From: Cladopsammia gracilis
Taxonomy: Eukaryota; Cnidaria; Anthozoa; Scleractinia; Dendrophylliidae
Length of the DNA stretch: 64,000 nucleotides
NCBI GenBank assembly: GCA_022457155.1
Contig: JAJGOT010000002.1
Location: forward strand, 2,188,501-2,252,500
Direction: 5' to 3'
This document shows, piece after piece, positions 31,379 through 62,732 of this stretch (positions are counted from its first letter, which is position 1; each line of letters opens with the position of its first letter). Position numbers and translations under genes: made by a program. The notes under the pieces were generated by a model. The model saw nothing but the letters and a program-made list of their open reading frames with translations, was not told the DNA's origin and searched no databases.

Positions 31379-34180
31379 CCCATCACAAAGAAGAAAAATA
31401 TAGTGCAGTTATGAAAGATTACATTGCCAAGGGACATGCTCATAAATTGTCGACAGAAGAGGTTGCGAACAGAGGTCCTAGAACTTGGTACTTACCACAT
31501 TTTGCTGTCATGAATTCTAAGAAACCTGGGGAGGTACGCATTGTATTTTTTGCCGCTGCAGAGTATGAAGAGACCTCCCTCAACAAAAACCTTCTACAAG
31601 GACCTGACTGCACCAACAGTCTTGTTGGAGTGCTCATGAGATTCCGAGAAGAGAACACTGCTCTAGTAGCTGATATCGAAAGCATGTTAAGTCCGTGAGG
31701 ACCAAGACTCGCTAAGATTTCTGTGACGGACTGACCGATTCTCCAGAGGAGTATGTGATGACTGTGCATATCTTTGGTGTGACCGACTCACTATGTGCAG
31801 CGAATTCCACACTGAAGAGAACTGCAGACGACAATGCAAAGGATTTTGACCCTGCCACTATAGAAGCTGTGAAGCATAACTTCTACGTGGATGAGTTGTT
31901 AAAGTCAGTGCCCACATCAAGCGCAGCAATATCACTGGCTGACCAACTGGTGAAACTGTGTGCAAAAGGAGGTTTCAACTTGACTAAATTCGAAAGCAAT
32001 AATCACCAAGTCCTCACTGAGATACCTGTGAAGAAGAGAGCTTCACCATTCCTCGACCTCGACCTGGATGAGTTACTAATTGAGCCCTTGGAGTGCGATG
32101 GAACATTGAATCTGATACGCTTGGATTCAAAGCAGCAGATTTAGATAAGTTAAATACAATGAGGGGTGTGTTGTCAACAACTGCCTCATTTTTCAACCCA
32201 CTGAATTTTGCGACCCCAGTGATGTTGCCAGCAAAACAGATCATGCAAACTCTATGGAGAAGAGACTGCCTTGGGATCACCCAATCAGTGGAGAGATTCT
32301 TGAGAAATGCAAAAGGTGGAAGAGCTGTCTACCTCTCCTAGAAAACCTAAGCATCACGCGATGCTACTTCAGTCGTCTCAAACATGAGCAACTTCATTTC
32401 TGCAACGCCTCAGAGGTTGGCTATGGTACCGCAAGCTATCTGTGCATGAGTACTCAGAATATGGCAAAACCGAATGTTCCTTCCTCACAGGGAAATCAAG
32501 GAATGCACCCATAAAGAGTATCAGACTGCCACGACTTGAGCTACAGGGGGCACTTCTTGCCGCATGGATGGACTCGGCAGTCAGAAGTGAACTTAGCTTC
32601 CAGTTTGACAAAGTCGTGTTCTGGTCTGATTCAATGATTACGCTGAATTACATCAAGAATGAGAACCGACGTTTCCAAACCTTTGTTGCGAACAGAGTGA
32701 GTGAAATCAGGGAACTGACCCACCCAGACCAATGGAGACACTGTCCTGGGAAGATTAATCCTGCGGATGATGTAAGTCGTGGCCAAGAGATGGATGACTT
32801 TCTGAAGAATGACCGCTGGTTGAAGGAACCATACTTCTTAAGAGAACCTGAAGGAAAGTGGCCGGAGAACAAGTACGATGTCATTCCCACTGATATTCTT
32901 GAGGTGAAGAAGGAGATATTCACTACCACTCTAAAGCCCGCTACGACAGTTGGGATCCTCATCACTGAGTCCTCCAACTGGGTGCGTACCTTGCGAAAGG
33001 TGGTGTGTTTACTCAAGTTTCTGGATTGGCGTGTCGCGATGAAACAAAATCCAGAGGTGATCACTCTGAATAGGGATATCAACTGTCAAGATCTAGAGAG
33101 AGCTAAGAGAAGAATCGAATCGTGGCAGTTGTACAGAAGATCAATTTCCCAAACGAGGTGACAAACCGGAATGAAGGAAAGCAAGTGAAAGTTTCCAGTA
33201 AACTAATCAAGCTCAAGCCAATCATGAAGGGAGATGAAATCATTCGTGTAGGTGGAAGGATATCCAAGGCTCTGATATCCGCTGATGCCATCAATCCGAT
33301 GATATTGCCAAAGAACCACCATATCGGCACTATCTTGATCCGAAGCCTCCATAAAACAAATGGACATTGTGGCGTAGAACAGGTGCTGTCGCTTCTAAGG
33401 GAACAGTTCTGGATAGTGAAAGCCAGAGGAGCAATCAAGAAAGTCCTGAGAACATGTGTGCATTGCAGGAAGCAGATGGGACCAAACATGAACCAGCAGA
33501 TGGGAGACTTGCCAAAGGTACGACTAACTCTGTACGGGCCTCCGTTCACTTATAACGGGGTGGACTATTTCGGACCATTCTATGTCAAGCGTGGATGAGA
33601 AAGAGTGATGGGGAGTTATCTTTGTGTGCATGAACTCTCTGGAAACGGACGACTTCATGCTGGTGCTCATGAGATTTTTGAACCAAAGAGGACATGTGAA
33701 AGAGATCCGTTCGGACAACGGACATCAAAGAGGCCTTGGAGAGCATGGATAATAGCAGAGTGGAAAGAGACCTCATGCAGAGAGGGTGTAATTGGGTTTT
33801 TCACCCCCCCTGGAGCATCTCATGTCAGGAGTTTGGGAGAGGTTGGTGAGGACTGTCAAGAGAAGCCTGAAGGCTATCCTCGGCAATGACTCAAGGAATG
33901 AGGAGATCCTGACCACAGTGTTTACTGAAGCTGAACGCATCGCAAATTCGAGGCCACTGACACCCAACTCCTTAAGTCCAGATGACGCTGAACCGTTGAC
34001 TCCGAGCCATTTCCTTCCTGAATATGCGGCCCTCAATGAACATTCCCCCTGACGTGGTAGAAGAGAAAGATAGGTTCAGACGAAAACAGAGGCGACAGGC
34101 CCAGCTTCTTGCCAACCACTTCTGGAAACGCTGCATACAGGAGTACATAACAACCTTGCAGCAAAGGCACAGGTGACTGC
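31375..34180 (+). pseudogene. BEL/Pao Pol: RT, RNase H, integrase, DUF5641-like tail
   Basis: In order with frameshifts: RT N-terminal part DYIAKGHAHKLSTEE, RTWYLPHFAVMNSKKPGEVR and NSLVGVLMRFREENTALVAD (31410-31690); RT active-site area HNFYVDELLKSV (31876-31911, Y-V-D-E where Y-V-D-D is usual); RNase H PRLELQGALLAAWMDSAVRS and VVFWSDSMITLNYIKNE (32520-32665); integrase zinc finger HKTNGHCGVEQ with CVHCRKQMG (33350-33485); integrase core GPPFTYNGVDYFGPF (33535-33582) and SGVWERLVRTVKRSLKAILG (33825-33885); end SRPLTPNSL and DRFRRKQRRQAQLLANHFWK (33950-34135). This order is specific to BEL/Pao. The RT motif has lost its second Asp. Confidence 0.88.
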
Positions 34181-36055: not shown

Positions 36056-38262
36056 TAATTATAATAATAATAATTAATAATAATAATTAATTAATAATAT
36101 AATTAATAATAATAATTATAATAATAATAATAATATAATTATAATAATAATAATAATATAATTATAATTATAATAATAATAATAATAATAATAATCCAGG
36201 GAGCCCACTCGCCATGGCGGTTTTCAGTGCTTCTGCGAGTTGAATAAGAATGAAAACTGCTATTACGACTGATGTCAAATTTAAAATCATGTTCCCCCAG
36301 CAGATATTTTTGCATCATAACACAGCGATGGAAGTGTCGTCTCTTTAGGAGGGTCTTTAGGTCCAAACGATGTAATGCCTCAGTAGATGAACTTCTTGGT
36401 GATAAATTAAGCAGGACCTTGGCTGCCTTGTTCTGAAGGACTTCAGCTGACCCATAAGCGTGTTGTTATTTTTGTCGCCCCACACTGTGTCTCCATAGTC
36501 AAACAGTGGGATGATTAAGCAATTGTATAGTGTTAGCTTAGCATATAGAGGCAAAAGATGTGTTATTCTCTTTATCAACCCAATCCTTTGGTTGATTTTT
36601 GTACTTATAGTATCAATATGCTCTGACCAAGACATAGTTTGGTTTATAACAACTCCCAAGTACTTAAATGAGTCAGACCTATCAATAGCAGTGGAGTTTA
36701 CTTTAAGAGAAACGTCATTATCCAGTTTAAGCTTCCGCGAGTTACCAAAGATAACGAAATTACATTTAGAAATGTTGAAGGTCAACAGGTTACTCGAAAA
36801 CAAGTTGGAAATTGTAGCCAAATCTGAATTTAACTTGCTTTCAAGGTCAGACAAATTAATCGATGAGTAGTAAATTACAGTGGCATCAGCGTAAAGAATA
36901 ATTTCACTGGCAAGCTCACACAAGGGTAAGTCATTCACGGTCCTAGTATACTTCCTTGTGGGACACCAACAGTTATTGGTGCAGCAATAGAGAGTGCATC
37001 TCCAACAGCTGTTTTTTGTTTTCTGTTCGTGAGATATGACTCGAACCAATTAAGAGAGTCATCTAAGAGTCCGACCAATTTAAGCTTATGAAGTAAGAGG
37101 TTGTGGTCAACAGTGTCGAACGCTTTTGAGAGATCTAAAAAACAGCACCTGTAAGATGACCAGAGTCCATGTTCAGAAGTACGTTATCTGTAAAGTGTGT
37201 CAAAGCTGTACTAGTTGATAGCTTAGGTCGAAAACCAAATTGCTTAGAGGTAATGATCTTGTTTTCATTGAGGAAATAATAGAGTTGGTTATGTACTGCC
37301 TTCTCCAGAATCTTGCTCAACGTAGGTAGCACGGTTATCGGCCTGTAATTATTTGGGTCACAACGATCGCCTTTTTTAAAAAGGGCAGACACCTTTCCAA
37401 ACTTCCATAAGGAAGGGAAGGTACGAGTGGCCAAAGATTGATTAAACAATTTGGTAAGACTTTTACTAATTACACTAGCCGAGTCTTTTAGAAGACAGGC
37501 ACTAATATTGTCAAGGCCAATTGCTTTGTTTGTTCTAAGTTGCTTAAGTTGACCACGTACGTAGTCTTCGGTGATTGGTTTGAAGACAAACTAAGGCAAA
37601 TCAGTAGATTTTGAAGGAGGAGATGCTAAGGTAATAAAGGATCTTAGTTTCATTGCAAGCTTTGTACCAGTTGTAGAGAGGTGAACATTTAGGATCTTGG
37701 CGATAGATGGATTGTCGCAATGTGCTACGTCATCGGCTTCGATACAAGAGATTGGGGAGCTTTGTTTACGCTATGTAATTTCATTCAGGGTTTTCCACAA
37801 TGCACTTGGATTGCTCTTGCTTTCTGATATCAGGTTTGAGTAGTAATCTGCTTTGCACTTTCGTATTTCTCTGTTTACATAGTTCTTAAGCTTTTTATAA
37901 CGTAACCAGAGGTGAGGTGAATTAGATTTAATGGCTCTGCCGTGGAGATAATCACGTTGGCTCATAGCTTGTGTTAAATGTGAATTCAACCACAGATAGC
38001 GGACTCCACGTATCCTTGCTTTCCTCGTAGGGGCATGTCTATCAGCAATATTAGTAAACAATTTGTTCCATGTGGAAACGGCAGAGTCGACATCTTCCTT
38101 ACTTGCAACAGATTCCCAATCAACATCCTTTAAATCATTTACAAAGTCTTGTTTGGAGTAATTTTTAAAAGAACGATATTCAATAGTTTTCCCTGGCGCC
38201 TTTGGGACACCTGACTTAACACAGAATATCATGGAATGATCACTTATTGTTAAGTGAATAAC
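36003..38262 (-). mobile_element. CR1/L2-like LINE, 5'-truncated
   Basis: Minus strand: SDHSMIFCVKSGVPK (the S-D-H end of the endonuclease, 38250), SFKNYSKQDFVNDLKDVDW, then RT motifs NYRPITVLPTLSKILEKAVH with KQFGFRP (37315-37240), ILYADATVIYY (YADA where YADD is usual, about 36890) and KYLGVVINQTMSWSEHI, ending about 36360. The order endonuclease then RT and these motifs fit the CR1/L2/Jockey group. The endonuclease is almost wholly missing, as usual for incomplete reverse transcription. It is broken by frameshifts and inserted in the family N gene. Confidence 0.85.
36026..36194. repeat. (ATT/AAT)n tail, about 170 bp
   Basis: AAT triplets with TATAATT interruptions fill 36026-36194. It lies exactly at the 3' end of the minus-strand LINE, so it is best seen as the microsatellite tail made at reverse transcription and later expanded. 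Confidence 0.8.
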
Positions 38263-52149: not shown

Positions 52150-53823
52150 GCGCTTCAGGCACTTTTGCGTTTCGTAGTTCAGACTCAGATGAAGAGTCCG
52201 ATACCGAGTCAACCGTGATAGATATTGACGGAGAAGGGACCGACCCACAGGAGGTACTGGAAATGGATGACAATCCTGACGTTGAAAATGATTTTGTTGT
52301 GAAAGATTCAGACAACTATGACACTGAGAATGTAAACCCTCTGAAGAAACTTGTTGTGAAGGCGGTGCTTCAAGCAGTGAGTATCATGGACAATTCTGGT
52401 TCCTCAATTAAGACATTTGAAGAAATTATTGTTTATGGAAAAGAAATGCTTTTGGAGTCAATTTCAAGTGACGTTGATGTTGATATTCTCTTGGCATTGT
52501 GGCCAAAAGACTGGAAAGCAGTCCAATCACTTCTTGAGGAACAGGGCTATTCTGATGCAAGGTGTATCATATTTGTATCTGTAGAGAACAGAAAGAGATG
52601 CGGAAAGGTGGAAAGACAAGTGTGAAGTATGTGTACAGCCACAATTGGAGTGTTATGAGCAGTAAAGATGAACTATGCCCTTACTGTGGCAATACTGGAT
52701 ACATTAAATATTACTATCTTGGGTTAGATAACAAGGTTAAAAACTGGTTCAAGACTAAAAGTATGTGTACAAAAATGTTGTTTCATTGGAGGGAGAAAGA
52801 ACACGGGCTTGGACAGACTGAGCTGGCCTCTCAAAAAGGAATTCTGGGATGGATAAAGATGGGTAGACCTGCAGTGGTTCTGGAATCCAACCCAGACATG
52901 GCTTCTTCCCACCAGATGCACAATTGTAAAGCTGTGATTTCAACAGAAACTATTGCCAATTGTGAGAAGGATGAAAGTGGACTGTCATATGTGGAATGCC
53001 CAGAGTGTCTGGAGACAGTTCCTTGTGAACTTAAAACAACAAATGGCTCATCCTCTAAACATTGCTTTAATTGGTCAATGGGATGCGTGGCAACCTTTCA
53101 AAACAGGTTTAAGGAGCTGTGGCTCCATTGAAATTTCAACTGCAAACATGTGCAAAGAAGATCGTGCCCATGTGGATGAAGTATATGTGGTAGGATTTGT
53201 GCCATGCACCTCTGTTCCAAATGATATACCTGAAGCTTACGATCCATTTCTCAAACCGCTAATGGATGACCTTTGTAGAGGTTTCATTGATGGGTTTCAA
53301 GTTCCATATACCACTGGGGTTGCCATCGATAACTATGAGCCACGTGAAGTAGAAACTGTGCGAATTTTATTGTTGTGCTGGGCTGCAGACCATCCTGGTC
53401 AATGCGAGTTTGGAAAGTTCTTAAACCAAGGCAAATGTAGCTGTAGGAGATGCAAGATGACTGGGCAGCAAAGTGAGCATTCCAACCATTACTACTACGG
53501 GAATAATCGTTATCACTGTCGTTATCCATGGGCAAAGAGGAACATTGAACTGGAACTGGAGAATCTATATGGTGTTGACAATGAAACCAGGAAAAGTGTA
53601 AGGAAATCACTTTCCTCTGAAAAAGGTTTTACTGGAACAAGTGTTCTACACAAGTACCTGTATCCACTTTATGGATTTGATATCTTACAACACATGTTGT
53701 TTGATGTTTTTCACACAGTCCCATTAAATCTATGCAAAAATCAAATTCGGATAATGTTAGAACTTGAATTGATTGACACAGCTTACCTGGAAGAAAAACT
53801 GAAAACATTTCCATGGACACGAG
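52150..53823 (+). pseudogene. CMC/EnSpm-type transposase, first part
   Basis: Three frames in succession: 52150-52625 (acidic N-terminus, LLALWPKDWKAVQSLLEEQG), 52562-53070 (ELCPYCGNTGYIKYYYLGLD, a C-x2-C zinc site; KNWFKTKSMCTKMLFHWREK; VECPECLETVPCELKTT), 53065-53823 (NIALIGQWDAWQPFKTGLRS, EVYVVGFVPCTSVPNDIPEA, YDPFLKPLMDDLCRGFIDGF, CSCRRCKMTGQQ, HMLFDVFHTVPLNLCKNQIR). The last part has the layout of the Tnp2/Transposase_21 RNase-H-like domain of CACTA elements. Two frameshifts break it. The text stops at FPWTR where the 6.9-kb transposon entered and continues at 60743. Confidence 0.75.
53818..53823 (+). repeat. Target-site duplication CACGAG, left copy
   Basis: CACGAG immediately precedes the left TIR, and the same six bases follow the right TIR at 60737-60742. 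The duplicated bases lie in the coding sequence of the CMC transposase. Confidence 0.9.
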
Positions 53824-54185
53824 TATGGTGGCCCATTAGTGCCATAGGGAAAAGCCATAAATTGATCATATATTCTTGTTTTTTTTTTTAATTTTTATTT
53901 TTTTAATACATTTTATTGATTTTTTTAAAATTTTATTTCATTTTTATTTTTAAATTAATTTATTTTTATATCTTTATCTTTTTTTTAATTCTATTTTTAA
54001 TTTTTTTTATTTTAAATTTATATATTTTATTTTTTTTATTTTTGAATTAATTTTTTTCATTTTTCAATTAATTTGTGTTTTCATTTTTTTATAAAAATGA
54101 GCATGGCCCATGAGTGCCACAGCAAAAAAAAAAATTGATCGGCCCAGGCGTGCCATAGCCCATGATGCATTGTGGTTGACTGAGT
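53824..54185 (+). repeat. Left TIR, about 360 bp
   Basis: Outer part TATGGTGGCCCATTAGTGCC and TTGATCATATATTC, then about 220 bp of T-rich, nearly pyrimidine-poor-in-C sequence (53875-54105), then GATCGGCCCAGGCGTGCCAT and CATTGTGGTTGACTGAGTA. The whole is repeated in reverse at the other end, low-complexity middle included. Confidence 0.9.
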
Positions 54186-54201
54186 AGTCCCCAGGCCCCG
54201 C

Positions 54202-54228
54202 TTTCAAACTCTTCAACATGGCGGCGGC
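54202..54228 (+). promoter_or_regulatory. YY1-like motif at the transposase start
   Basis: CTTCAACATGGCGGCGG (54211-54227) contains AAcATGGCGGC, close to the YY1 consensus AAnATGGCGGC, which often sits at or just after the start site of TATA-less promoters. The ATG in it is the transposase start codon. The same 17 bases occur inverted just inside the right TIR. Confidence 0.55.
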
Positions 54229-57200
54229 CATAAGAAACGATGGCTGGAAGGACGACGAGGGGTTGAAGCAGGATTTGCAGGAATACGTGAAACAGAACCT
54301 CAAGAGAGAAGAGATCTTAGATTTCGTTTCTACGAAATATCCAATGTATGCATGGAGTTTCCGTACTCTCTGTCGTCGTTTGCAGTATTTCGATAAAGTA
54401 CATCGACTATGACATAGAACTGGACGACTTAGAAGAATCTGTCCGCAAAGAAATGAATGGCCCCGGAAAATTACTTGGTTATCGTGCGTTGCACAAAAAG
54501 ATTAGAGAAGTACACGGCCAAAAAGTTCCAAGGAACGTGGTCTATGCTATGATGGAGGTCGTTGATCCTAGCGGCCTCAAAGAACGAGGAGGTGTCGGAC
54601 AAGCAAAACGAGCTCGAAAGGGTGTTTTTTTATCAAAGGTAAGCACAAACTAAAGTTTGTTACAGTAAAGGTCATTATGAACAGTTGTGATGTTGCTTGT
54701 TTACCTGTTCTAATTTTAATTTAGAAGACCACTACTATCGATCTCTGGGCCCTCTCTAGCCCCTCTGGCAATTCCACCTTATCAACTTTCCTAAAGCAGA
54801 CCACTGTTACATTTTGTTATGTTTCTGACTCCCCACATTTAGCCTGTGTCAGTTCCATGTGCTAGCTCAAAGATAGGTTGTGTTTCTGAACTTCTTTGTC
54901 CTGTTTTCTCTTGTTTATCTGGGAGACATTGATACAGGATATCTTAGTGTTGAGAGCACTGGCCTCCCACCAGTGTGGCACAGGTTCAATTCTAGGTCCC
55001 AGCATCGTACATGGGCAGAATTTGTTGTTGATTCTTGACCTTGCTCCAAGGGATTTCTCTTGGTACTCTGGTTTTTCTCCCATCACAAAAACCAACATCT
55101 CCAAATTATTAATTCCCTCATGAAAACAGTGGGTGAATAAACACTTTGTGGAAATGTCACTGTAAATTCCAATTTATTATGTTTTTTAAAATTTATTTTT
55201 CTTTTAATCAAATTATTTGTTGCCAAAGCAGAATCAAAGGTTTTTTAAACTCTACATGACCTAGAATTAATGGCTGTAAACGGAAATTCAAGCCTACAGT
55301 CTTCATTAAGAATTGTGCCTAGCCACTTATTTTAATGGCCTCCCTTTTTTATCTCCTAAACCTTCTGTCCTTATTTGCAATGATAGTTGTTTTTCTACAT
55401 TTTGTGTTGAGCATATTTTTTTAATTTAACATGATATTTGAAGTGCAGACATATTATGGGAAAAAATCGGACATGGAAATTCAAGATGCTCAACATATAT
55501 CGAGGCACATACCTTCTGAAGTTATACAAATAAATTGGCACCATGTTGTGATGTGGTATGTTCTTTTGATTATATTACAGGGTTCAGATTGGACAATGTC
55601 ATTGGATGGACACGATAAACTCTGTGGTTACCAAAATTCTACTTTCCCGTTGTGCATCTACGGAGGATTAGACACATTCAGTGGCAGAGTGCATTTTCTT
55701 CGTATTTCGACTTCAAACAGCAACCCCAAAATTGTTGGTCGATACTATTTGGAGTATCTTTATGAATCTAGAGGTAAGTAAAGTTTTCCAGACAAAAACT
55801 GTAGCCTTACTTAGTGAATTCTCTCCATGCCAGGAGGCACATACAAGGCCGTAAAGGCTTGGTATGTAGACACAAGTATACTATAACTAATACAAATGTT
55901 TATTGGAACCTTCAGAAGCCCTATATTGTGCAAACATTGCTTTCAGTGACTAGAATTTGTAGATCAAGAATTTCAAGTATGAATTACAGATCCATACCAC
56001 AATCGCCAGAGAAATATGGTACACATCAAGTGGTGGTCTAGGTTGCAGTGGGACTTTGATCAGATTTTCCAGTAAAATTTATTGTCTTGCTATCCTTTAT
56101 ACAGTCAAGTGGCCTAAGTGGCCTGAATTGTGGTAATTCTCAATTCTGTTATTCGTTTATTTATATCCTTTATTGTAATAAACTGGAACTTGAATAACAG
56201 TTCAATGATCTGAAACTTTAACAGCAATCCTCCTTTGATGTACACTGTAGGTGACCGGATGTGGATTCCGGCGACTTCTGTCTTAGATATTACATTTATT
56301 CATTCCTTTCTTGTTTTTTCTCTTTCTATTGACAACACAAGTACTGCCATCAAGACTACGTATGGATAAGGGAACTGAGACAGGAATTTTAGCAACCATG
56401 CATACATATCTTAGAAGCAAACATGAGGATCTGGAAGATCCCACAGACAGCGTACTCTATGGTCCTTCCACAGAAAACAAGATAGAGTGCTGGTGGAGAG
56501 AGCTATTAGATAGGATGGAGAGGTTTTTTAAGAATCAGCTCAAGCAACTGTTAGAGGACGGTAGTTATCAACGTGATAATAAAATGCATCGGTAAGTCCT
56601 TTGTTTCTTTTATGATCTTGTGTAAATACCTAATCTCAAAGAGGTTACTCATATCAGCTGTATATGACCCTTTTGAAACACTGGTTGAGAACTTTGTGTT
56701 CTGTCTAAGGTACTGCTTTCCCTAACACATTAACCCCCGCCCCCATTATGGCAATGAAGCTACAACTCTTTTTCTAGAGTTCAGTTCCTAATGGAAATGG
56801 ATTTAAGTTTTATTGAAGTCCATTTATTCTTGTGTAATATAACTTAAAATAATAAAGAAAGCATTGATTTGAAACAATATATTACCTTTTTCCCCTTTGA
56901 CAGAGATTTACTTGCATTTGTGTATATCCCAGTAATCCAGAAACAACTCGATCTATTCAGAGAAACTGTATGGAATTCTCACCGAGGTCGCAAACAAAAG
57001 TCCAAAGAACTTCCAACTGGAGTACCAAACCACATTTATTCCTTTCCTGAGCATTATGGGGGTGAAAATTGTGGCTTTCCTGTTGATGAAGATCAGTTGA
57101 AGGAAGTTGCAGAACTGTCTGAAGTATTAGAGGGGACTGATGACTTTTTAGATTCTGAAGTCCGCACTCGTTGTGAAGCAGTTATCTCAAATGTTGATGA

Positions 57201-57255
57201 TGTTGAGCCGGAGGATGCTGCTACCGCATATTTATATCTCAAGGCAAACTATTAA
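54218..57255 (+). CDS. rve-type (IS3EU-like) DDE transposase, four exons
   Basis: Exons 54218-54638, 55581-55773, 56342-56591 and 56904-57255, all with GT-AG borders (GTAAGC, GTAAGT, GTAAGT donors) and matching phases 0, 1, 2. Exon 1: helix-turn-helix region (LKQDLQEYVKQNLKREEILD, SFRTLCRRLQYF), a 1-nt deletion near 54405, then DDLEESVRKEMNGPGKLLGY and a basic end RARKG. Exon 2: WTMSLDGHDKLCGYQNSTFP (first Asp), IYGGLDTFSGRVHFLRI. Exon 3: RLRMDKGTETGILATMHTYL (second Asp), YGPSTENKIECWWRELLDRM (Glu). Exon 4: FVYIPVIQKQLDLFRETVWN, GVPNHIYSFPEHYG, acidic tail ending LYLKANY. The DDE triad is intact. It should cut and join the element's ends in the nucleus. The single frameshift in exon 1 would stop it unless it is a sequencing error. 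Confidence 0.8.
54935..55147 (+). mobile_element. tRNA-derived SINE in transposase intron 1
   Basis: TTAGTGTTGAGAGCACTGGC (A-box like) and CAGGTTCAATTCTAGG (B box) form the tRNA-like head of a Pol III promoter. It is followed by GCTCCAAGGGATTTCTCTTG, GGTACTCTGGTTTTTCTCCC and AAAAACCAACATCTCC, a body I associate with widespread cnidarian SINEs. It is in the same orientation as the transposase. It inserted after the transposon arose, as it lies in its intron. Confidence 0.75.
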
Positions 57256-59087
57256 TACATTTATGTAATCCAATGTTTTGTAGAAAGGGGCAAATAAGAG
57301 ATACATTGAGCCATTTATATGCAAATATCTAAGTAAACATTTGTGTCATACACCAGCTATGAGTCTTTGAATAACACCGACAACAATAACTTTAACTTGG
57401 GCTCCTTTTACAACTTTTACCGTTGACAACCTTTTGTGTTGCCATGGAAACCAATGTTGACCTCACAGAGATTTCATTTTGTTGTGTGATAAACAATGTA
57501 AAACTTTTTGCTAAATGTCCTTGGCAAGACTGAGTGTGATAGAAACCTAATGAAAAGAAGGTCTAAACTGTAACACCAACTGGAAATTATGATAAGGTGT
57601 AGTTAATGCTCCCAATCCATAAAAGCAAGCAGGACAACAAACAATTGTGTGGGGAAAGGGGGTAGGGGATGAAGTGCTCGAGTTGCCAGTACAGGTCATC
57701 AATGTATAAAAACACCTGGATCAGGTTGCTTGCGAACGAGAGGACCTAATCCCCCCGGCCTAATCCTCTAGTCTGGAAACAGGCTTTCTTTCAGCGCAAA
57801 GCGCCATGCTTCGTCTGAGAGAGATAGAGCCTGTTTGCAGGCTACTAATTCCCAGGCCACTAAGAGTTCCATAGGGTTCTAATCCCCAGGGCACAGAGAG
57901 GTCCTAATCCACTCCAGGAGTCTGATCAACAGAGTTTGCACGCATTGTTACCATGGAAACAAGATAGCTGACCATGTGAGCCTATGGGTCAAAGAGTGAT
58001 CTGTATGGTGCACTTCATGCTCTCCCAGATTTTTATTTATCTAAAAAAAACAACATATCAATATAATGTTTACAAATCAAAACAAACTGTAACGTTCATA
58101 ACAAAGGCAGACATGCTGCACAAGTCCAAAGCAGCACTAAACTGAAACTACTGTAACATTTGTAACAAATTTCCAATGGCAGACAATTTGCACAAGTTCA
58201 TATCAACGTAAAAGCACTACGCTTAATTGCTAAAATATTTGTATGACAGTAGCATATTGGACAAAGTTCCACAGTAGTGATTACAAAATTTCAACTTGTA
58301 ATTCCTATACTTGTTCACCTCACCTACTGTTGTTTGTTAGAACACCTTTTTGTGAACATTTCTGTAAACATAATGGTACTATAATAATTATTGCGAAAAT
58401 GGTCGGACGGAAAAATGTCTGGAAGGTTTTCCGTCCGAAGATTTTTGTAATTTTAAAAGTATATTGCATTTCTTAACTCAAGTCAGTCAACCTATCACCT
58501 ATCATCCACTGACTAGACTAAACGCCTGGAAACAGTGATGGAAAGGGAGATTTTCGAAAATGGTTTCAAAATGCTCAGTTTTCTGGCCTAGGGTGGGCAG
58601 GTGAAATTGGAGGCTTTTGAACATGGTGACGAAAAAAGCGTCACATACTAATGTCCCTTCCATCAGTGTTTTCAGGCATTTGTGGATGATAAGCGGAAAC
58701 GCATCGAAAAGTATGCGTTTTCAAAAAAAAAAACGCATTAGTGTGGTCGGAACCGATCGCAAGAAAAAAAACAGTTAACCTTGCACTTTTTTTAAGCTTG
58801 AAATGGAAAGACCAACAAATTCCATTTTACTTTTTTGAATGTTTGTTTAAAACAGAGCCAAAAATCTCCCATAGTCACATGGGGCTCCTTAAAAACTTCA
58901 CACTTTTTGGCATTTCTTATACAATATTGTTCTTGACCAACTGTTTTCAGTCCTGAAAGAAAACAGTAATTTACTGAACATTGTCTTTCTATGAAACTAA
59001 ACAATTATTGCTGTTCAAAAACAATAAAGTACTTTATGGGAACAGCTATCTTTAGTCAGTTTAATTTAAAAAAGTGTGAAACCCAGA
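57256..59087. other. Transposon interior between the convergent genes
   Basis: No gene. 57720-57920 has repeated CCTAATCC and CCCAGG words. 58523-58550 (ACGCCTGGAAACAGTGATGG) is matched in reverse at 58656-58690, followed by AAACGCAT/ATGCGTTT at 58697-58716, so a small inverted-repeat element may lie here. The transposase 3' end and kinase 3' end would share this space. Confidence 0.45.
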
Positions 59088-60295
59088 TTATTCAGAAATT
59101 CCGAGGAGACGACAATATTTGTTGCAACTGTGTTCTTCAAAGAACTTGTCAATCGCATTGGCCGACAGGTTTCGAGAACAGAAGAGAATGCTGTTGTCGG
59201 TCTTGTCGGTCAAGTTGGTACTTGCGATTTCTGGATCGCACAGGTTATAGTCAATTCCCTGAATATCGAGAACCATCAGTTGTTTATCGGACCTGACGTA
59301 TGTATAATGGGCAAATGCCTCAGCTTTGACTGTGACCTCGTCACTACTATCACCGCATACTTCCACTGTATTGTTGACGTACTTCCAGAAAGTGCCATCA
59401 AGGTACAGTGACAAACGGTGACAAATTCGCCATTTAACGCTGAAAAGAAAACTTTTGTGTAGGTAAAACTTCTGCCAAATTCTAATGCTGGCTTTTCCAT
59501 TTCCATGCTTTGTGTAAAATTGCGGGCAAGGGCGTTCATCTGCACGGCCTTCCTGGTATGTGCCTCTGTCGACTGGAACAACTGCTCGATTTCCTTGATC
59601 CTGTTTTCCTTGTATCTTTTAAGGACATATTTTCCTGGGGGCAAACCAGAAATCGCATTCGCCTCGTAGGCTTCACGGAATGCACCACTAGCAAAGGAAC
59701 TCTTGTTCAAAGATAACTTTACCTCAATGGGCTGCAGCCACTGTCGTTCGATGGAAAACTCTTCCAAGTATAAAGATACTATGTCAACTTTGGGCAAGAT
59801 CAACCGCCCTAACTTCAATATTTGACTTAACGGAACAGATGCCGCAACCGCAGTAGATGCGACTTCCAATGGATTGGCTTTCTCGGGGCTGACCGGGGTA
59901 CTCTGGGTAAGTCGAACGCTTCTGGGCACGCTTCTGTTGTTGTCTGCGTTGACATTCTCAATGAAACGAATGTGGATTACTTTCCAGTTCTTAATCTGTG
60001 CTGCGTCCATATAGGAAGGACCGCGTTCGCCTGCGAGCAAGTCGCATTCCATTCGTGTACCGAAATGCGCCTTGCAGGCTTCCTTAATGTTATCTAACGT
60101 TGCTTCTTTTCCCAGTGGAACCATAGTGAGCGGCCCTATCCTCGAATATTTCTGACACTTGCCCTCAACATTGGATGACAACATTTGCACTGTTATGAAG
60201 TCACTTGGTATGGCGGCATCATCTCTTTTCCCTGTTCTTTTTTTCGCATTCTTTCTCTCAAATTCAAGCCACTCCTTTTTTCTCTTCGAAGACAT
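59088..60295 (-). CDS. Alpha-kinase (atypical protein kinase) carried by the transposon
   Basis: Starts MSSKRKKEWLEFERKNAKKR at 60295 (basic, possible nuclear signal). Residues 31-115 form a separate N-terminal domain (QKYSRIGPLTMVPLGKEATL, HFGTRMECDLLAGERGPSYM, NWKVIHIRF). The kinase domain begins near residue 180: SSFASGAFREAY (199-210, Gly-rich part), KYVLKRY with the ATP-binding Lys at about 226, KAVQMNALARNFTQSMEMEK, then after a +1-type frameshift at about 59415 LYLDGTFWKYVNNT, EAFAHYTYVRSDKQLMVLDI, QGIDYNLCDPEI (catalytic loop region) and HSCNKYCRLLGI, the C-x3-C zinc site that closes alpha-kinase domains. So all core parts of the eEF2K/MHCK/TRPM7-type fold are present. It has no intron and runs toward the transposase. 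Role in transposition is unknown; substrate unknown. Not activatable as read because of the frameshift. Confidence 0.82.
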
Positions 60296-60360
60296 ATTAA
60301 ACTATGAGAAAACGTGGGCTTATTCTCAGATTTTGAACAAATAGTCAACCACGAAACATG

Positions 60361-60377
60361 CCGCCGCCATGTTGAAG
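60361..60377 (-). promoter_or_regulatory. YY1-like motif upstream of the alpha-kinase
   Basis: Minus strand CTTCAACATGGCGGCGG, identical to 54211-54227 and directly adjoining the right TIR (60378). Its ATG opens a 14-codon upstream frame (MAAACFVVDYLFKI) ending in TGA before the kinase ATG at 60295, so it could be a short uORF or the initiator of the kinase transcript. Confidence 0.5.
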
Positions 60378-60736
60378 TACTCAGTCAACCACAATGCATC
60401 ATGGGCTATGGCACGCCTGGACCGATCAATGTTTTTTTTTTTTTTATTTTCCGGCTAAAAAAAATAAAAATAAAAAAATGAAAACACAATAAATTAATTA
60501 AAAAATGAAAAAAAATTAATTCAAAAATAAAAAAAATAAATGTAAAATAAAAAAAAAATAAAAATAGAATTAAAAAAAAGATAAAAAAATAAAAATAAAT
60601 TAATTTAAAAATAAAAATGAAATAAAATTTTAAAAAAATCAATAAAATTTATTAAAAAAAATCAAAATTCAAAAAAAAATCCAAGAATATATGATCAATT
60701 TATGGCTTTTCCCTATGGCACTAATGGGCCACCATA
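60378..60736 (-). repeat. Right TIR, about 360 bp
   Basis: Reverse complement of the left TIR, including the A/T-rich centre, now A-rich on the plus strand. It ends GGCCACCATA followed by the CACGAG duplication (60737-60742). Confidence 0.9.
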
Positions 60737-60742
60737 CACGAG

Positions 60743-62732
60743 CTTAAAAATGGAAGAATTCCAGTTGCAGTTGGAAAGGAAGGTAAAGGGTTAGGCTCCT
60801 GGAAAGCTGAGGGCTTTCAAAAATGTTTCTTTCCACTGCTAGAATGCATTCTCGAAGGAAAGATGGAAAACTTGACTGAACTTGAAATTGTATGCTCAGT
60901 TTTAAGGTTTTTAGAACTGTGTTTTACTAGTGGTTGAGATGGTTGGAGTAATGAAATGATTGAAATGCATAGAAAGCTGGCCCAGAGAATCAATGTAAAA
61001 ATTGAAGCTCAAGGCCTTGATATGTGTACAATATCCGTGCACAATATGATCCACGTCCACGAGGACATAATCAACTCTTCTGCAACAGACAATTATTGGT
61101 GTGCTGTTTTCGAAAGGGCAGTTAAAAGTTATGTCAAAAGATCACACAACTGCAAAGGAGTGGAGAACACATATGCAAAAGCTGAAGCCCATAGAGAATT
61201 TTTGAAGAGTCTAGTTGAGAAAGAGGATGATAATCAATTTGATGAATGTGACACAAGCTAGGTATTTTACTTTACTATTAAATTTTTTTGCATAGCATTT
61301 TTTGCATATTTGAGGAAACCTCACAAGCTTCACTTGGTTTATTACAGTTGTACTGTATGTACATTTAATGAGGTTTCTGTGTGATATTCAGAATAAGTGT
61401 TACTGTATGTCAATGAATTCTGATCAGACAGGTGATCTAGTTTGCAGTTGTAACTTCTGCAGTTTGAAAGAACACCCCCCTTGAAAAAAAAACAGCAACA
61501 ACAAGTGAGGCTTCAACATAGTTCATGTTGAACGCATGCTGATATGACACTGGCTGTACACTTTCAGCCAGTGACAAAATAAAAAATAAATGATGAATGT
61601 GTAGTGAGTGCAATTCAATGAACTTTGTACGTCTATGATACTTGTACTGATAGCTACATGTATGGTTTTGCAAGTCATGATTAGAACCAGTTTGGCCAGG
61701 CAAGTGAGTTACATTCTACATGAAAACAAAAAAGTACTAAGAACAGGGGAGAGACCCTTTTAACCCCAGAACCATCACAGAGAATTTTTGTTTAACTCAT
61801 CACATGAAAAAAACTGAAGACCAGTTGTTAGGGTACTCAGTACTAGTATTCCTTCTCTCTCTTCTATTAAGTTTTGGTCTTTGATTACCTTTAACTGACA
61901 AATTGTCATTTCCTTCTATTAATAGAGTGTTGTGCATTCTGTGGAAGCAGCTAGAGTAATGTGCCGCAAGGAAGGCCGCCATTCCTTGTTACTTGGGTCA
62001 TCAAAAGGAGTTTTGCAACTGACCAGTGAGAATCATATCAAAATTGCAACTGCTCTATCGCTTCCTCCAACAGAAATATCAGCTGTTTCCACGAATACTA
62101 AAAAGTGTTTTCTGAACAATGTTGGCTATGAAGGTGTGGTGCTGTCAAGTAATGATAACATCATCGTCAAGTTGGGAGGCAGTGAAGCAGTAGTCTGCCT
62201 GCAGAAATTTTTGTCAGTAAGATGTGAGGGACAAGACTGTCTGTTACTTGGGGAGGGCCATGTAAAGCCTTTCCAACGGAATGATAAGGGGGAAATTGAT
62301 GTGAACTTTTGGAATGGTTTTCCTAAAGTACAAATGCAACCTGTCAGTGAAACAGTGTTCTTTGCAACTGAAAATGTTGCAAGAAAAGTTATGCTGTATG
62401 ACTGTGGGAATAACACCGCAACTGTTGTTGATTATATGAGAAAACTGAGAAGTCTTCCATATGAACTTGTTGTACCAGTTTATCCAGAGAAAGATGATAT
62501 GCTTCTTATTCAAGGACTTCCTGGGGATGTCTGGTATGGCAAAGTACTAAGTATTGATAGGACAAGACATGAAGTTGATGTAGTCTTCTTAGTAGAGAAG
62601 CATCTCCATGCTGGTAGATTTGAACGAGAGACACTTGGAAGAAGAGCCATCAACACAGTTTCTTTAAATTCAGTAACTGGAATTGCACAAGGTCAATGGA
62701 TTAATGCAAACTGTTGGCTGAAAACTTCCTGA
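60743..62732 (+). pseudogene. CMC/EnSpm-type transposase, last part
   Basis: The frame continues from 53823 (one base out of phase): LKNGRIPVAVGKEGKGLGSW, FFPLLECILEGKMENLTELE, MIEMHRKLAQRINVKIEAQG, SATDNYWCAVFERAVKSYVK, HNCKGVENTYAKAEAHREFL, to a TAG at 61260-61262 with one TGA near 60937. The stop directly adjoins a GTATTT splice donor. After about 660 bp, an AATAG acceptor (61925) starts a last exon open to 62732: HSVEAARVMCRKEGRHSLLL, ATALSLPPTEISAVSTNTKK, VVPVYPEKDDMLLIQGLPGD and VWYGKVLSIDRTRHEVDVVF, the usual C-terminal end of animal EnSpm transposases. Confidence 0.7.

Follow-up and report, generated by a model that had tools for sequence, protein, structure and literature searches.

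We describe here a transposon of about 6.9 kb in a stretch of DNA from Cladopsammia gracilis (assembly GCA_022457155.1, contig JAJGOT010000002.1, positions 2,188,501 to 2,252,500 of the forward strand; these 64,000 nucleotides are hereafter the window), which fits the IS3EU type and carries an alpha-kinase gene in addition to its DDE transposase gene. Conservation of the kinase family, signs of linkage elsewhere, and published fungal elements together make it highly probable that the kinase is a standing component of an IS3EU-type transposon lineage and not a one-off capture. The explanation that we favour overall, and consider reasonably probable, is that of a decayed two-gene IS3EU-type element whose kinase is a standing part of the lineage and aids the element from within the nucleus. 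The presence of an alpha-kinase in a DDE transposon is already known from fungal IS3EU elements, as passages of PMC12730594 show. What is new here is the animal case, the conserved basic tail and predicted ubiquitin-like domain of the kinase, and a TISU-type motif at both ends of the element.

The element is flanked on both sides by a perfect 6-bp duplication, CACGAG, and its inverted ends (Table 1) are identical at 321 of 350 aligned bases, with 20 gap columns and no difference across the outermost 54 bases. The termini read TATGG...CCATA, and the 26-base terminus is confined to the two ends within the window, even when 3 mismatches are allowed (0.00 occurrences expected from shuffles). Each end has an AT-rich inner tract, that at 53878-54112 being 91% A+T. 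The transposase gene consists of four exons with GT/AG borders, and its product, with an X placed at a frameshift in exon 1 of this copy, matched PF24764 ('Integrase core domain') with an E-value of 2.2e-19. The best 120 of 465 transposase relatives were listed, and 28 of those were aligned with the window protein (alignment A2). All 29 rows match PF24764 and share invariant D151, D215, and E255, the latter two separated by 39 residues. Cnidarian proteins lead the matches listed (Exaiptasia with 64% identity across 90% of the query, Acropora with 60%), and the transposase profile has no match in the PDB. According to passages of PMC10045372, IS3EU elements have TA..TA termini and usually 6-bp duplications, and the first catalytic Asp of IS3EU/GingerRoot transposases lies 100-300 residues in (here 151); the word kinase is absent from the text of that paper. 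Rust-family IS3EU ends are given as TAYGG..CCRTA in passages of PMC12730594. The assignment to IS3EU, first suggested by the pairing of a 6-bp duplication with an rve-like DDE domain, agrees with these descriptions in termini, duplication length, and transposase type.

Table 1. Features of the element and their positions in the window
Feature	Position	Strand	Basis or remark
Whole transposon	53824-60736		two long inverted ends, 6-bp duplication outside
Left target-site duplication copy, CACGAG	53818..53823	strandless	
Right target-site duplication copy, CACGAG	60737..60742	strandless	
Left terminal inverted repeat, ~362 bp, opens with TATGGTGGCCCATTAG	53824..54185	+	alignment to right end
Right terminal inverted repeat	60379..60736	-	alignment to left end
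Left TISU-type motif, CAACATGGCGGC	54214..54225	+	transposase starts at its ATG (54218)
Right TISU-type motif, CAACATGGCGGC, mirror of left	60363..60374	-	ATG 75 bp upstream of kinase ATG
Transposase exon 1, frameshift at about 54390-54400	54218-54638	+	GT/AG borders
Transposase exon 2, first catalytic Asp (DGHDKL)	55581-55773	+	GT/AG borders, alignment
Transposase exon 3, second Asp (DKGTET) and Glu (STENKIE)	56342-56591	+	PF24764
Transposase exon 4 and stop codon	56904-57255	+	GT/AG border
Alpha-kinase open reading frame, N-terminal part: basic N-terminus, predicted ubiquitin-like domain, start of kinase domain	59276..60295	-	ATG at 60295
Alpha-kinase C-terminal catalytic half, frame differs from N-terminal part	59091..59414	-	PF02816

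The alpha-kinase gene is intronless, lies on the minus strand, and is convergent with the transposase gene. Its C-terminal piece matches PF02816 (E 6.5e-25, 88.7 bits, above the curated cut-off of 21.3); the frame shifts at approximately 59405-59415, so that the 339-residue open reading frame (ORF) finishes out of frame. The two gene starts sit 394 bp (transposase) and 441 bp (kinase) from the element ends. An earlier sequence-only reading had proposed inverted ends of about 360 bp around a perfect duplication, a four-exon transposase, a convergent intronless alpha-kinase, and gene starts within about 450 bp of an end, and all of this architecture holds.

A search with the kinase found 388 relatives, including cnidarian and hemichordate names; 120 of these were listed in one search and 175 overall, from which 42 were aligned in A1 and 81 in A3. 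Among the matches listed, the kinase ORF is closest to a protein of Actinostola (63% over 86%). PF02816 is matched by all 43 rows of A1 at an E-value of 0.1 or better, and nine catalytic or zinc positions are kept in 78-81 of the 81 full-length homologs of A3, counts which are biased toward intact genes by the selection of rows mainly for full length. The family is conserved and catalytically complete. Its members also share a basic N-terminal tail and an N-terminal domain, to which Pfam matches are inconsistent and which is predicted to have a ubiquitin-like (beta-grasp) fold; the domain was modelled separately, the structure matches of the full kinase model being dominated by the kinase domain. 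In a tree of 86 rows and 112 columns, the 82 family rows split from four PDB kinase segments, the only outsiders included, with support of 100/97; given few columns and long branches, the tree is informative on little more than family versus outsiders. Scans of viral contigs and prokaryote genome contigs found no relatives of the kinase (A1) or of the transposase (A2). Five members of the kinase family (P0047, P0054, P0006, P0021, and P0152) are gene models whose titles in cnidarian and hemichordate records read TRPM6-like, myosin heavy chain kinase-like, or alpha-protein kinase-like, and these automatic names are probably misleading.

These data bear directly on the possibility that a host kinase gene was acquired by one copy or a small lineage of the element, for which it would have no role. 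In its favour, alpha-kinases are otherwise known as host enzymes. A family that is old and broad, that retains a common N-terminal domain and its catalytic residues, and that stands apart from the four PDB kinases in the tree argues against it.

Signs of linkage of the two genes outside the window come from two record pairs. In EukProt, gene13470 (transposase, P0181) is directly followed in numbering, and in the same naming style, by gene13471 (kinase, P0125). For a second EukProt kinase, P0117 (gene11552), the best 120 of 465 transposase matches hold no neighbour. In Exaiptasia, the contigs bearing transposase P0184 and kinase P0047 are equal in size, 214,097 bases, and no other size is common to the 78 kinase records and the 64 transposase records whose contigs exceed 20 kb. 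Four further contig sizes common to the two lists (1640, 1329, 1503, and 2183) were taken as coincidence because such contigs are too short for both genes. P0044, an Actinostola record in which an rve domain accompanies a match to the kinase, was dropped as linkage evidence; its rve domain is PF00665, and the sequence resembles a long terminal repeat retrotransposon integrase.

Two observations favour capture. The signs of linkage outside the window amount to two record pairs, and the divergence of the two genes is out of step: identity values for the kinase are 52.6 (window-Exaiptasia), 50.5 (window-EukProt), and 44.4 (Exaiptasia-EukProt), those for the transposase core are 64.4, 75.1, and 64.6 for the same pairs, and the ranking of the three pairs differs between the genes, the kinase being the faster-changing in all three. 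Exchange of genes between elements is a possible reading of this pattern. The transposase relatives listed include molluscs, Ciona, and Clytia, names that are absent among the kinase matches listed; the kinase may therefore be missing from some of the wider family. The conservation of the kinase family and the fungal elements discussed below, in which an alpha-kinase is likewise found, make capture a very unlikely account.

The fungal elements provide the closest known counterpart. As stated in passages of PMC12730594 (2025), in every fungal TET+ IS3EU family a TET/JBP gene sits between the genes for the transposase and the alpha-kinase, and these two are oppositely oriented. The element described here resembles them in its 6-bp duplication, TAYGG..CCRTA-type ends, rve-like transposase, and oppositely oriented alpha-kinase. 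It differs in having, where those carry TET/JBP, a stretch of 1835 bp between the two stop codons (57256-59090) in which no ORF of at least 100 residues was present in a list of ORFs from 70 residues; there is thus no TET/JBP gene there, and the element is not classed as TET+. A hairpin with 25-nt arms of 84% complementarity and a 12-nt spacer lies within this stretch at 58390-58451. The small inverted repeats and the lack of longer ORFs between the genes could point to a misassembly or a nested insertion that joined two genes. We consider this hardly credible, since one matching pair of ends and one perfect duplication enclose both genes and the layout is the same as that of the fungal elements (in the passages of PMC12730594 noted above).

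The sequence-only reading also knew of no alpha-kinase described in any DDE transposon. The fungal elements overturn that priority claim; the same finding strengthens the accompanying idea that the kinase is a fixed component, which now draws on family conservation, two signs of linkage elsewhere, and the fungal IS3EU elements. In PMC12730594 the word kinase occurs twice in total, both times within the gene-order statement on TET+ IS3EU, and no kinase function is proposed there. In the literature searched, which left Repbase entries and most subscription journals outside, no report of an animal IS3EU element with an alpha-kinase was found.

Among solved alpha-kinases, the family was compared with TRPM7 kinase (1ia9), MHCK A (3lmh, 3lkm), eEF2K (8gm4), and ALPK1 (8zd3), and identity to solved kinases was 22-28%. 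Unlike these, the element's kinase is free-standing and approximately 400 residues long, has a basic N-terminus, and contains a predicted ubiquitin-like domain of its own. In the mechanism that we favour, inward-facing starts in the two ends would give the transposase and the kinase, respectively; the basic N-terminus would carry the kinase into the nucleus and the predicted ubiquitin-like domain would bring it to a partner; the kinase would then phosphorylate the transposase complex or else a host factor acting in repair, chromatin, or the cell cycle, and as a result the element would move, or evade silencing, more readily. That the kinase acts in the nucleus is, on the basis of its tail, about an even call. 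Transposases are known to be tuned by host-kinase phosphorylation. Direct phosphorylation of this transposase by the element's own kinase seems doubtful to us.

The kinase may instead be directed at the host, modulating translation (as eEF2K does), the cell cycle, repair, or silencing, and leaving the transposase alone. We regard this as a serious contender, if somewhat short of even. Among solved structures, the kinase stands closest to TRPM7 kinase, MHCK A, and eEF2K, all of which have host substrates. The TET/JBP gene of the fungal relatives, interpreted by the author of PMC12730594 in the passages concerned as a route around silencing, would be in keeping with it; the basic N-terminus, which would favour the nucleus over cytoplasmic translation factors, speaks against it. 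In a further alternative, the kinase would dampen the transposase as a self-limiting regulator, so that the host is spared. Separate control is possible, as the kinase is a gene apart that starts from the opposite end, and the sequence gives no sign either way; we hold this alternative to be unlikely. The helper role set out above is our preferred account of the kinase.

A bolder version of that account would make the alpha-kinase ancestral and working in animal and fungal IS3EU alike, as a nuclear enzyme with a ubiquitin-like targeting domain and a mirror-image start that licenses transposition by phosphorylation. We put this forward tentatively, as possible but on the unlikely side. If it were true, the alpha-kinase expansions of rusts would be largely transposon genes. 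The alpha-kinase family is described as highly expanded in rusts in passages of PMC4469406, and one alpha-kinase is among the rust fungal genes under diversifying selection according to passages of PMC4150398; some of these kinases could be transposon genes of the IS3EU type. An animal case beside the fungal case suggests an old pairing, and the TRPM6-like, myosin heavy chain kinase-like, and alpha-protein kinase-like gene models in cnidarian and hemichordate records may likewise be transposon genes. With a kinase supplied by the element itself, there would be a transposon-encoded control circuit to investigate.

The starts of the two genes share a further feature. The TISU consensus, SAASATGGCGGC, denotes a motif with roles in initiating both transcription and translation (passages of PMC9658832), and the sequence CAACATGGCGGC fits it exactly. 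It occurs twice in the window against 0.02 occurrences expected, once per end, with both copies pointing inwards. The ATG of the right copy is in frame with the kinase ATG, but from there the frame runs for 14 codons before a stop; the right motif may therefore serve transcription, or be retained simply as inverted-end sequence.

The copy in the window is itself probably dead, because both genes are frameshifted and the Gly of the kinase GNL motif, kept by 80 of 81 relatives, is replaced by Arg. The kinase copy does retain the Lys, His, and Asp and the HxCNxxC pattern, but its frame is broken.

With respect to the insertion site, it had been proposed that the element lies inside a CMC transposase coding sequence. 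A CMC element is the likely target: the left-flank ORF (52953-53888, + strand) has a weak match to Transposase_21 (tnp2; PF02992, E 7.4e-4, 19.2 bits, below the cut-off of 28.6). Placement within a coding sequence is no more than plausible, as that match is sub-threshold, no Pfam family matches the right-flank ORF (60956-61258), and in the reconstructed empty site the reading frames to the left and right of the insertion disagree. No Rfam match was found across 53000-61500. Elsewhere in the window, a Pao-type retrotransposon peptidase match occurs at 32442-33158 (+ strand; PF05380, E 1.2e-10), and a weak reverse-transcriptase match, below the cut-off, at 36360-37049 (- strand; PF00078, E 2.1e-4) probably marks a decayed retroelement.
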